Source: Mesorhabditis belari
Lineage: Eukaryota > Nematoda > Chromadorea > Rhabditida > Rhabditidae
DNA: 64,000 nucleotides
Reading direction: 5' to 3'
NCBI GenBank assembly: GCA_958450365.1
Contig: CAUEEP010000731.1
Span: forward strand, 3,224,501-3,288,500
Shown here: positions 1-4,672 of the stretch, piece by piece
How the letters are laid out: each line of letters begins with the position of its first letter
Numbering within the stretch: position 1 is the first letter of the stretch
The notes under the pieces: model-generated
The model's database searches: none
Told to the model about the DNA's origin: nothing
What the model saw: the letters and a program-made list of their open reading frames with translations, nothing else
Position numbers and translations under genes: made by a program

Positions 1-1507
1 CGAAGACGGCTTCAAAGTGTTGTTGGAGGTCGTCGGCTGGGAGGTCACAAAATGGAGATTCGGCTTCGACGACTTCTCGGAAGGCACGTCGACGGTTTGA
101 CCTGTAGAGCTTCTGAATACGAGAGGCAGCAACAGCATCGTATTGTGGTCGTCTTGGTGGTGGTCGTCTTCTCCCATCGGTCCGTCTTGGCGCAGCACCA
201 GTTCTCCCATCTTCCTCGGGTGACTTCTGATGGATCGCTTCGACGAGTTCGTCCAGCACTTGATCCATTTCTTGCGACGTCGTCACGCCATCGATCCTTT
301 GAATCCATTGTTGTTGAATTCGGGTGCCGGTCGGCTGAGCTTGGTTTGGCACTCTTGGGGTGGCAGCTCTTGGCGACGGCGGTGGCGTGGCTCGGTGGAT
401 GTGGTTCGAGGGCGTGGCGTTGAGGTGGATTGGTGATTGTGGTGGGCTGGGTCGTCTTTGCTCGTTTGGTTTTGCAATGGCTTCTCCACGTGTTGGCGAT
501 CCCTCAAAGACAACGATTGCTTCCTGTGTTTCTTGGCTGGTTTCTTGACGCGCTGCACTAGGGTCGGCTTGGCTTGAATCTTTTTGCGGGGTGGGCGGCT
601 CTGTTCTCTTTTCGGAATCGAGTTCCGTGACGTTTCTTTTAGCCGGTCTCCCACACTCTTCCGCGTCACGGAGCCTTGCCTTCCCGGGTGGAGTGGTCGT
701 CTCTAGTGCCTTCTTTTGCTTTTCACACGTCTTCAAATGTGACTTGAAGTCCCTTTTGTGTTTGAATCGCCCTCGACACTTGACACATACAAGGACCAAT
801 TTGGCCAAATGCATCCGTAGGTGTGTCTGGAGGGCTTTCATTTCAGAGTAGATCGTTTCCTTGTTGGGACAAAGTCGACATTTCAAGTCGAGGTTCTCAG
901 CATTTGCCGTCTCGATGCAGTAGTCGTTTGGAGGTGGCTGTTCTTCTTCTTCACATGACCGTTTCTGGTGGGCTTCGGTGGTCTTTTTGTCCTTGAAGAG
1001 CATCTGGCATTCGCGGCATCGGAAGGCGAAGTTTTTGTCAAAATTGTGGCTCTTCTTGAGATGCTTCTTCAGGTCACCATGTCGAATGTAGAGCATCTGA
1101 CACCATTTGCACCTGAAGTGGTCGTCTAGTGGCACATCCAGCACGTACTCTTCTTCCTCTTCATCCAACGCTTTGTCTTGGTCATCGTCAGCGAGTTCTA
1201 GCGGCGATTCCTTCCCTGGCGGCGGCGGCGGCGGCAACACATGCGGCGGCGGCGGCGGCACAGGTCGGGGCGATGTTCCGCTTCTCGAACTGCGTCGACG
1301 GGTCGGCGTTGTGGGTCGAGGTGGCGTGGCGATGTCGTCCTCATCTTGCTCGGCTTCTCCTTCCCTTCTCCTTTCACCTTCTCGTTCACCTTCTCTTTCT
1401 CTTTCACCTTCTCTTTCACTTCCCTCTTCGACGTCGATTTCCGAACCCCTTCCCCTAGAATTTGCCAGGGGAAGAGGCTCGTCCAAAAATGTATGAGAAT
1501 ATGGCAT
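1..1507 (-). CDS. N-terminal part of a non-LTR retrotransposon ORF (R2/NeSL superfamily, Utopia-like), cut by window edge
   Basis: An uninterrupted minus-strand frame of about 502 codons runs from ATG at 1507 off the left edge; an in-frame stop lies just upstream at 1541-1543. Visible in order: an acidic/arginine-rich leader, proline runs (about residues 83-97), then four zinc knuckles: C-x2-C-x12-H-x4-H (about 133-154), C-x2-C-x12-H-x4-C (about 164-185), C-x2-C-x15-H-x3-H (about 210-233) and C-x2-C-x12-H-x3-C (about 241-261). A low-complexity linker follows, ending in an IQKLYRSNRRRAFREVV block at about 3-100. Blocks of this kind precede the reverse transcriptase in R2/R4/NeSL-type elements, where N-terminal zinc fingers help bind the target DNA. 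The reverse transcriptase and restriction-like endonuclease should lie left of the window. No stop or frameshift was seen, so the copy may be recent. The U2 flanks (1548-1567) suggest the target. Family assignment is inference. Confidence 0.72.
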   Translation of the reverse strand, partial: MPYSHTFLDEPLPLANSRGRGSEIDVEEGSEREGEREREGEREGERRREGEAEQDEDDIATPPRPTTPTRRRSSRSGTSPRPVPPPPPHVLPPPPPPGKESPLELADDDQDKALDEEEEEYVLDVPLDDHFRCKWCQMLYIRHGDLKKHLKKSHNFDKNFAFRCRECQMLFKDKKTTEAHQKRSCEEEEQPPPNDYCIETANAENLDLKCRLCPNKETIYSEMKALQTHLRMHLAKLVLVCVKCRGRFKHKRDFKSHLKTCEKQKKALETTTPPGKARLRDAEECGRPAKRNVTELDSEKRTEPPTPQKDSSQADPSAARQETSQETQEAIVVFEGSPTRGEAIAKPNEQRRPSPPQSPIHLNATPSNHIHRATPPPSPRAATPRVPNQAQPTGTRIQQQWIQRIDGVTTSQEMDQVLDELVEAIHQKSPEEDGRTGAAPRRTDGRRRPPPRRPQYDAVAASRIQKLYRSNRRRAFREVVEAESPFCDLPADDLQQHFEAVF

Positions 1508-1547
1508 TGTGCCTCGACCAACGTTCTTTCTCTGCTCAAATCAACGT
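1508..1547 (-). mobile_element. 5' leader of the full-length retrotransposon copy
   Basis: Only about 40 bp separate the upstream U2 fragment from the start codon at 1507. The leader includes GTTGATTTGAGCAGAGAAAG (1528-1547 region, minus strand). It closely resembles GTTGATTGAGCAGAGAGAAG at the end of the ORF remnant in the neighbouring truncated copy. Confidence 0.55.
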
Positions 1548-1567
1548 ATTAAGCCGATAAGAACAGA
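1548..1567 (-). pseudogene. U2 snRNA gene fragment, internal 20 bp
   Basis: On the minus strand this reads TCTGTTCTTATCGGCTTAAT, identical to the same stretch of the complete U2 gene at 3571-3758. It lies between the 3' end of one retrotransposon copy and the 5' end of the next. It is best read as the target-site duplication made by the second insertion. Confidence 0.85.
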
Positions 1568-1940
1568 GGAAGTTTTATTCAGTGAATGTTTGTAAAATTT
1601 CAAATAATATTTGATGCCCGATGGCAATGGAATTGATGAATACAAATACAAATAGAAGTACTTGCATGGAATGAAGCGATAAGGTCAATAAATCACAATA
1701 GAATATATAGAAAATTGTTTTAAGATACAACAATTTTTGAGGAAAATGACTAATTCAAATAATAATGAATGTAGGACAATAAGTAAGAACTTCTCTCTGC
1801 TCAATCAACATATTGTTTGTTTCCGGTGAGGTGCTCGACGTAGATATCGCGAGACCATTTGATCGCATCCGAGACCATCAGTTTCTTCATGAGTTGACCA
1901 TATCGCAGTGAGACGCCGAGTTTCCTAAGTATAACATCAT
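1568..1940 (-). mobile_element. 5'-truncated U2-inserted retrotransposon (ORF tail and 3' UTR)
   Basis: This 373-bp insert separates two parts of a U2 gene. Its 5' end (1940 downwards) is open for about 42 codons and ends in a TGA near 1812-1814; these may be the last residues of a retrotransposon ORF. The rest is AT-rich and looks like a 3' UTR ending AAAACTTCC directly against TCTGTTC of U2. 5' truncation with a precise 3' junction is the usual product of target-primed reverse transcription. Confidence 0.65.
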
Positions 1941-1974
1941 CTACACATTGATCTTAGCCAGAGGCCAGAAGCGA
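1941..1974 (-). pseudogene. U2 snRNA gene fragment, 5' end
   Basis: The 34 bp on the minus strand match the first part of the complete U2 gene at 3571-3758, from the second base through GTGTAG. Upstream (plus 1975 onward) is a purine tract instead of a snRNA promoter, so this copy is dead. The retrotransposon interrupts it within GTAGTA, the branch-point recognition element. Confidence 0.88.
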
Positions 1975-2175
1975 GAAGAAGAAGAAGAAGAAGAAGAAGA
2001 AGAAGAAGAAGAAGAAGAAGAAGGAGAAGAAGGAGAAGAAGGGGAAGAAGGGAGAAGAAGGAGAAGAAGGAGAAGAAGAAGAAGAAGGAGAAGAAGGAGA
2101 AGACGGAGAAGGAGAAGAAGAAGAAGAAGAAGAAGGAGAAGAAGAAGAAGAAGAAGGAGAAGAAGAAATAAATAA
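1975..2175. repeat. GAA/GGA purine tract
   Basis: About 200 bp of GAAGAAGAAG and GGAGAA repeats, pure purine on the plus strand. Long open frames here are composition artefacts. It abuts the broken U2 5' end. Confidence 0.95.
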
Positions 2176-3188: not shown

Positions 3189-3570
3189 TTTTAAATAGAA
3201 GTATTTTAGTCCTGTCAGCAAAATTGGAAACGTATTCAAAAAAAATTCATAAGAGGCCCCAGAGGGATTTTTTTTTTTCTGGGAGATTCTTTATGGATCC
3301 GGAATCATTTCTATGAGAATAGTTTCACTTTTAAACCTCTTTTTTTGGTACGTTTTAAACAAAACTCTATCGTTTTGAATAGTTTTTAACAATCCTCAAA
3401 AATTTTGATTCATCTACGGGACCCTTACCTACTTTTTTAATCGACTGATTTTGAGGGATCGAAAAATAGAAGATCTGCGTCTTCTATTGGAATATTTCCA
3501 GTATACATGATTTCCAATCCAACAGAACTTTCCTATTCTCTTCTTTCTTTCATTTTGTTCCCCTTGTGGG
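3189..3570. other. AT-rich spacer 3' of the U2 gene
   Basis: Low-complexity AT-rich DNA with no recognisable gene. It is downstream of U2 on the minus strand, so any snRNA 3'-end box would lie near 3555-3570; none was identified with confidence. Confidence 0.4.
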
Positions 3571-3758
3571 GGTTGTGCGCCGATCCCGCCGGTAAGTGCA
3601 ATAGCGGGCCGACGCTGTATGGCGAGAAGCAAGCTTCTACAAACCATACCAGTTCCAAAAATTGATTAATCTCGATGAGTTCAATAGAACTCGTACCGGA
3701 GATTAAGCCGATAAGAACAGATACTACACATTGATCTTAGCCAGAGGCCAGAAGCGAT
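3571..3758 (-). ncRNA. U2 spliceosomal snRNA
   Basis: The minus strand begins ATCGCTTCTGGCCTCTGGCT, then AAGATCAATG and the branch-point recognition segment GTGTAGTATCTGTTCTTATC. An Sm-type site (CAATTTTTGGAAC) follows near the middle. Loop IV shows AAGCTTGCTTC and TATTGCACTTACC, corresponding to the conserved TTGCTCC and TATTGCAGTACC of metazoan U2, and the 3' end is GGCGCACAACCCC. About 188 nt is the normal length. U2 pairs with the intron branch point in the spliceosome. All key elements look intact, so this copy is probably functional. The 3' end is uncertain by a few bases. Confidence 0.95.
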
Positions 3759-3839: not shown

Positions 3840-4672
3840 GCAAAGAACCTCTAAAAAGGCGAATGAGTTGTTTGCTCTGTGTTCTCTCAAGATTGCACAC
3901 TATTTTCCACAACTTCTTTCTCCTCTATGTCTCCCCGATGTCTCTGTTTCCCGTCCCCACTCCAATATTCTCAGTCTCCCACTCCCCTGTGTGCTCTCTT
4001 GTTCATTCTGTGCGCCTGTAATCCAGTATAATGGCTCCTTTGAGCGTTCTTTGTGCGCGCACGTAATCGCTCTCTTTCTGGCATACTCCTTTTCCTTTAA
4101 CCGCTTCCTTTCCTACCTTTCGTATCTCTGGTTCGTCTGCATTTGACCGAGAAAATCTTTCGCCTTTTACTAAAGATTTCCGTGCAGACGGACAATTATG
4201 AGTATATGTCAATTTTTGGAAGTCCCCTTGAGAAAGCGGGACAAAACAAGGACAACGGAAGGTTAACACTCCACAAAGCATCAGTTGAGTGAAACCCACC
4301 TAATGCAAAAAGCGATCAACGCAGCAAAGGTCATCTTCAGCGTCTTTAATATTTAGAAAAATATTAAAGACGTCATCAAGAAATCGACGGAGTCAAGTAT
4401 CTGTTTGACAAAAAGTGTATAAAAGTGTTTCTTGAAAGAATAGTTGAAGGAGATGCCAAGTGTTTCTTGAAGGAATAGTTGAAGGAGATGCCAAGTGTTT
4501 CCGTTGCCTCAAGGTGGTGAGGGGCTAGTTTCACAGGCATTGAAAAAGAGAAAAAGAGGTTCATGCGGAAAAAGCTTTTGGTCTTTTTAAGGAAGGGATA
4601 CCCGGCGGATCCGTGGAGGAGAAAAAGGAAAAACTTTTTGCCTTGATTTGTTAACTATTTTTTTCTTTATAG
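3840..4672. other. Spacer inside the Tc3-like element with short duplications
   Basis: Contains a perfect hairpin AATATTTAGAAAAATATT (about 4349-4366), a direct repeat of about 35 bp around AAGTGTTTCTTGAAGGAATA (4423-4500), and a second copy of GGTCATCTTCAGCG (4329) that also begins the downstream transposase piece at 4672. This suggests duplication during an insertion event. No gene was seen. Confidence 0.5.

Follow-up and report, generated by a model that had tools for sequence, protein, structure and literature searches.

To our knowledge, the transcription of target-specific elements outside rDNA has been little studied. Among the closest described systems are Utopia elements, which in the sections of their description consulted here (PMC4640811) target U2 snRNA genes with a 3′ junction before TCTGTTCTT, encode N-terminal zinc fingers, a reverse transcriptase (RT), a C-terminal CCHC motif and a restriction-like rather than AP-type endonuclease, occur as several families per genome with interrupted beside intact U2 genes, and form tandem copies in Nasonia and 20-bp duplications in reptiles. 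The same sections place NeSL, a nematode element of the spliced-leader exon, in the same clade as Utopia, and state that it is not well understood how several Utopia families are maintained by few U2 genes. Keno likewise targets U2 and carries an AP-like endonuclease. R2 targets 28S rDNA and is co-transcribed with its target gene; PMC3774820 suggests that 28S sequence left on the first-strand cDNA pairs with the target, so that junctions come out uniform, and PMC3414825 describes short non-autonomous elements (R2 SIDEs) at the same site. In C. elegans, SL1 and 5S genes lie together in tandem (PMC1657053, consulted in part).

We analyzed a 64,000-nt stretch of the Mesorhabditis belari genome (the window; C544:3224501-3288500) and searched the full assembly of 207.6 Mb in 714 contigs. 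As a sequence-only reading of the window had proposed, a U2 gene on the minus strand is interrupted by foreign DNA, which directly follows U2 nt 2–35, and comparison with an intact U2 gene shows that two bases, TA (nt 36–37), are lost at the break (Table 1). That reading had called for one inserted retrotransposon with U2 resuming at 1567-1548; U2 sequence is indeed present there, but it lasts 20 bp only, and the final resumption is at window -2833. A single insertion is rejected, as the two copies differ in family and 3′ end, and the window U2 gene is instead the host of two stacked elements: copy A, of which the tail alone is left (family 4), and copy B (family 1). Copy A comprises the end of an endonuclease ORF and a 3′ UTR with AATAAA close to its end, and aligns with one family-4 copy over 373/373 bp at 99.5% identity. 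Copy B is ~4.38 kb long and has its 3′ end outside the window at -2832 (C544:3221668), past which the 20-mer and the remaining U2 3′ sequence follow. The 502-codon ORF noted earlier is real and starts a reading frame that extends to window -2437, 1,326 codons in length and 1,315 when counted from its ATG, with RT, CCHC motif and restriction-like endonuclease all left of base 1, but the stretch 1940-1568 that had been assigned with it is not of its element. Upstream, the U2 fragment directly abuts a (CTT)n repeat and the U2 promoter is absent; this break is ambiguous by ~2 nt because repeat and U2 have letters in common. The intact U2 gene has a U5 snRNA gene (window 4123-4243, plus strand) as its divergent neighbor at a distance of ~365 bp.

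Table 1. Features of the window and upstream partners of fused U2 5′ junctions elsewhere in the assembly
Feature	Position or locus	Strand	Basis
U2 snRNA 5′ fragment, nt 2–35 (TCGCTTCTGG...GTGTAG)	1941..1974	-	sequence match, Rfam
Copy A, 5′-truncated 3′ tail of a family-4 element	1568..1940	-	alignment with family-4 copy
20-bp U2 segment, nt 38–57, TCTGTTCTTATCGGCTTAAT, target duplication separating copies A and B	1548..1567	-	exact match
Copy B, 5′ part of full-length family-1 element	1..1547	-	head begins ACGTTGATTTGAG at 1547
Copy B ORF from ATG, 502 codons inside window, 1,315 total	1..1507	-	translation
C2H2 zinc finger 1, copy B	1046..1111	-	Pfam score under curated cut-off
C2HC-like zinc finger 2, copy B	953..1018	-	pattern match
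C2HC-like zinc finger 3, copy B	725..787	-	pattern match
Uninterrupted U2 snRNA gene (empty-site control)	3570..3758	-	Rfam, 143.6 bits
Fusion partner: array-unit DNA, promoter lost	L042, L064		
Fusion partner: array-unit DNA, SL1 exon cut after 16 nt	L062 = L081		
Fusion partner: array-unit DNA, beyond 5S gene	L073 = L074		
Fusion partner: window-type spacer	first junction of L091		
Fusion partner: 868-bp element	L069, L072		
Fusion partner: ORF regions of elements	second junctions of L071 and L091; L079		

Extending the contig leftward and translating it revealed an R2-type RT and a restriction-like endonuclease, in agreement with the R2/NeSL-style protein foreseen from the N-terminal ORF and placing the RT among R2-like enzymes rather than outside that group. 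The family-1 protein matches Pfam RVT_1 at E 1.6e-28, with zinc fingers under curated cut-offs, and solved R2 chains align with its RT and endonuclease regions at a best E of 1e-67; Pfam returned no AP endonuclease domain in family 1 at E up to 0.1 and, in the same family only, no match to an N-terminal Ulp1-like protease such as that of NeSL. A pattern check of 12 ORFs from 12 loci, one of them with an incomplete N-terminus (L046), found the AYADD, CCHC-knuckle and R/K-PD...DVT (restriction-like endonuclease) motifs in all 12. Among the best 120 of 483 relatives in a protein search, those near the top include proteins of Globodera pallida (54%), Plectus sambesii and Panagrolaimus, scorpion and turtle proteins come next, and a match labelled Dendroctonus (51%) places among the nematode rows of an RT tree. 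This tree, composed of the genome's own copies, labelled proteins, 35 unlabelled rows (some Centruroides) and two R2 rows, and free of NeSL, R4 and named Utopia sequences, places these copies beside proteins from Globodera, Panagrolaimus and Plectus, with support of 0.57-1.00 at the joining nodes; neighbors include hosts from the published Utopia host list, and the two R2 rows stand apart. This grouping, together with an SL1 exon in the U2 arrays, bears out the nematode origin that had been suggested. At least four ORF families have the U2 site in common and are frequently stacked, with 52-81% amino acid identity between families (eight pairs compared). Of 13 pairs for which dN/dS was estimated, 12 give 0.13-0.44 and one is saturated, and 32 of 35 scored copies are stop-free in the matched part. 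These 35 were scored from 1,189 first-look candidates of a protein search of the genome, and all 35 lie on U2-bearing contigs; the predominance of copies away from U2 genes that would have told against the reading was not seen in this set, and further copies may lie elsewhere. The elements fit Utopia-type non-LTR retrotransposons with a restriction-like endonuclease, as had been proposed; the accompanying expectation that a nematode member would extend the known picture carries less weight, because the consulted sections of PMC4640811 already include Trichinella and Pristionchus, and host novelty is therefore small.

Across the assembly, the 20-mer TCTGTTCTTATCGGCTTAAT occurs 261 times and its reversed control 0 times, and chance is therefore excluded. 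The genome-wide scoring of U2 sites that had been recommended gave 141 sites with the U2 3′ side, 79 uninterrupted and hence 62 interrupted, as exact-match assembly counts that are inflated because contigs C286 and C598 have stretches in common at 99.1-100% identity (six pairs compared). The proposed specificity for U2 holds at the 3′ end: all 36 scored family-4 tails that reach the 3′ end enter U2 from nt 38 (40 matches listed, four ending short), as do 40/40 scored family-1-like tails (41 rows, one being U2 alone), both counts including the window's own copies. Many U2 genes belong to tandem units of ~1.5 kb that also contain 5S rRNA and SL1 RNA genes, as at L043 (C521:1-10000) and L042, where the unit holds U2, SL1, and 5S on the opposite strand. 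The 5S gene of the array was identified by Rfam; the SL1 exon is identical to GGTTTAATTACCCAAGTTTGAG, its Rfam SL1 match of 32.7 bits being below the cut-off of 75, and SL1 occurs 430 times, so that some copies lie outside U2 units. The window's own U2 gene has a spacer that differs from the array-unit spacer. In the literature searched, by titles and abstract openings, we found no prior description of U2 within a 5S/SL1 unit.

Stacking is extensive in these arrays. The 92 20-mers on C286 comprise 17 at uninterrupted sites, 24 at U2 3′ sides, 15 at U2 5′ sides and 36 between elements, and one gene (C286:39781-56660) contains seven segments separated by 20-mers, two of them a 217-bp composite head. 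The fetched loci contain 24 distinct 25-mers preceding 20-mers: three are U2-type, and the other 21, all of them element ends, carry AATAAA without exception. U2 5′ fragments in L097-L099, L105 and L106 were considered as insertions and rejected as U2-derived satellite. The satellite consists of repeats of U2 nt 1-36 (ATCGCTTCTGGCC...GTGTAGTGTGGG) on the same contigs as the U2 arrays, at L097 (C598:89900-94100), L098-L099 and L105-L106 (C521:105-118 kb).

The U2 site also harbors ORF-less elements of ~0.87 kb (~866-868 bp) and ~1.05 kb (1045 bp), whose longest frame in samples of 868 and 1045 bp is at most 143 codons. With the autonomous families they have mainly the 3′ tail in common, ~60 nt in most comparisons, and no coding part. 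At L014, L026 and L028 (C286), ORF-less elements contain internal GCCGCCGCTTTATGCC-like repeats. A 217-bp spacer separating 20-mers was rejected as a small element in its own right, its last 34 nt being U2-like (91%) and preceding a ~866-bp element, and is better seen, from its sequence, as the probable head of a composite; the mutated, older U2 piece within it begins at ~U2 nt 4 rather than at nt 1 or 2.

To collect 5′ junctions we searched for U2 nt 24-57 with A or T as the next base, which gave 38 U2-flanked 5′ sites, all of them read; breaks further down than nt 24 are invisible because the pattern begins there, and the 5′ sides are covered in part only, since the 62 interrupted 3′ sides exceed the 5′ places read. 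The U2 promoter end is present at 25 junctions, one (L090) is unclear, and 12 are fused at U2 nt 1 or 2 to other DNA. A 0.8 identity threshold had given 22 with and 16 without promoter, after which four were reclassed by hand: the promoter class gained L057 and L076, each with a one-base indel and matching at 14 and 17 bases respectively, as well as L083 (eight promoter bases, then a C-run), and L090, with two U2 changes and a different upstream sequence, was set to unclear; L083 could be another kind of break. The 12 fused junctions represent 10 distinct upstream partners drawn from array-unit DNA, window-type spacer and other elements (Table 1). At L073 = L074 (C521), the element head extends only 12 nt after the fused U2 piece before U2 sequence appears again, a return that marks a further rearrangement. 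Three further distinct fusions (the window, L100 = L103, and L101), drawn from 100 of 181 listed U2 5′ fragment places with the remainder-class places fetched in part, have a truncated copy separating the U2 piece from the next 20-mer, which bears an ACGTTG head. This brings the distinct fusions to at least 13, six at nt 1 and seven at nt 2, and they are present with all three main head types, among them that of ORF-less elements.

No fusion at nt 1 was found among the 79 uninterrupted U2 sites: in 73, nt 1 is preceded by CTGT, the four bases with which the usual U2 promoter ends, five have another promoter, and one (L096) is a U2-U2 recombinant. Reading 30 bases further up in 24 of the uninterrupted genes, which come from fetched, overlapping loci, identified the usual promoter in 18 (>=0.8), the promoter with an indel in one and other promoters in five. 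The difference between 12/38 and 0/79 gives p = 3.5e-7 by Fisher's test on rows that are not independent, and 3.4e-6 after removal of duplicate fused rows. Every element head with upstream sequence directly follows the U2 20-mer, that is, nt 57 (99/99, in fetched loci that overlap). At L091 and L071, element 5′ stumps of ~140-300 bp are followed by a second U2-headed element, a structure suggesting that most of an earlier element was lost when later ones inserted. Rfam searches of four 5′ regions, two of them of ACGTTG type, one from family 4 and one from an ORF-less element, detected no HDV-like ribozyme at E values up to 5, a possible difference from R2, which carries such a ribozyme at its 5′ end.

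On this sequence evidence we consider it probable that these Utopia-type elements were retrotransposed from an RNA begun at the U2 cap site, with the U2 end guiding the 5′ junction. By homology with R2, the element protein would nick U2 before nt 38 and prime reverse transcription there. The template would be a co-transcript from the U2 cap site comprising U2 nt 1-57, the element and an AATAAA-bearing tail, and because we infer that it starts at the cap site, full-length cDNA would end in U2 nt 1-2. Pairing of this cDNA end with target U2 nt 1-37 would create a seamless junction in which promoter and target site are kept and 20 bp are duplicated; where pairing fails, the end at U2 nt 1 or 2 would be joined to leftover upstream DNA and the promoter lost. 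The same gene would be open to repeat hits, and thus to stacks, because the U2 5′ part and the 20 bp stay upstream of a full-length copy, and the youngest copy would be expected nearest the U2 promoter. Some observations weigh the other way, among them the start at ~nt 4 of the mutated U2 piece in the 217-bp composite head. Copies deep in a stack do not adjoin the U2 promoter, and in C. elegans, Integrator loss yields U2-headed read-through chimeric RNAs that are made and not translated (PMC6390993, consulted in part), which by analogy would count against the same RNA being used as message and as template and means that the protein may need another RNA form.

The fusions might instead reflect DNA-level breakage at the U2 transcription start, at a paused polymerase or R-loop during integration, with the nt 1 end rejoined and upstream DNA lost, the 20 bp arising from a staggered cut and the element having its own promoter. 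Promoter loss with variable upstream partners does resemble end joining, and 20-bp duplications with a shifted top-strand cut have been inferred for reptile Utopia elements in the consulted sections of PMC4640811. However, such an end is absent from all 79 uninterrupted sites, and 13/13 distinct fusions are accompanied by a full-type head, adjoining in 10 (12 nt only at L073 = L074) or past a truncated copy in three, a pattern expected if a cDNA end makes the fusions; we judge breakage unlikely. Unequal exchange in the tandem arrays, or misassembly, could likewise yield fusions and stacks, given the repetitive arrays, the overlap of C286 and C598, and individual irregular loci (the recombinant L096, the odd C-run upstream at L083 and the rearranged L073 = L074). 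Yet recombination has no reason to favor the edge at which thirteen distinct partners join U2, nt 1 or 2, and one fusion is on the window's 3.3-Mb contig, making an artefact of this kind quite improbable. A template jump, in which the RT reaches the element 5′ end and switches onto free U2 snRNA, has a precedent in R2 jumps onto U12 snRNA and tRNA (reported in the consulted portion of PMC3414825), but landing on the U2 3′ end would put the whole of U2 before the element. Because the element heads follow U2 nt 57, as seen in the 99 heads of the fetched loci (the 38-junction set is uninformative here, as its pattern itself stops at nt 57), we give this explanation hardly any weight.

With transcription from the U2 cap site as the favored reading, the elements can be set against known systems. 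Utopia, whose 3′ junction corresponds to nt 38 here, is already known to target U2 with this type of endonuclease, to occur as multiple families and in tandem copies, and to show 20-bp duplications (PMC4640811, consulted sections); relative to those sections, the M. belari elements differ in the placement of U2 in a 5S/SL1 tandem unit, stacks of up to seven segments, the sharing of the site with ORF-less elements of ~1 kb and 5′ fusions at the U2 start. They resemble R2 in the alignment of RT and endonuclease, in co-transcription with the target gene as inferred here, and in target sequence at the cDNA end as the likely guide of the 5′ junction (suggested for R2 in PMC3774820); in contrast to R2, the target is an snRNA gene, which the scored 3′ ends enter, and the RNA 5′ end would lie at the U2 cap site, 57 nt before the element begins. 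Like R2 SIDEs, short elements occupy the site, here with mainly a 3′ tail in common with the autonomous families. NeSL differs in its target and, at the level of Pfam, family 1 differs from it in having no protease match; the restriction-like motif without an AP domain in family 1 sets the elements apart from Keno. Searches of mostly titles and abstracts turned up no report of Utopia transcription from the U2 promoter, and within the literature so covered three features are new: element fusions at the U2 start, the compound target array of U2, 5S and SL1 genes, and U2-site elements that lack an ORF.

The presence of U2, 5S and SL1 in one tandem unit suggests a route by which a U2 element could have reached the neighboring SL1, the kind of target used by NeSL. 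More broadly, we lean, by a modest degree, towards Utopia elements being transcriptional riders of the U2 promoter, with a mobile RNA begun at the U2 cap site as a chimera whose 57-nt U2 head would allow the cDNA to re-seal the target and would bring along the duplicated 20 bp. Every precise insertion would then keep the U2 promoter and renew the landing site, which would explain the coexistence of many families in few U2 genes. The U2-start junctions provide a genomic answer on element transcription that is open to direct RNA work; if the reading is true, the promoter of a splicing RNA produces the genomic RNA of a transposon, and the stretch of target gene carried along in this transcript leaves the site available to a following insertion.
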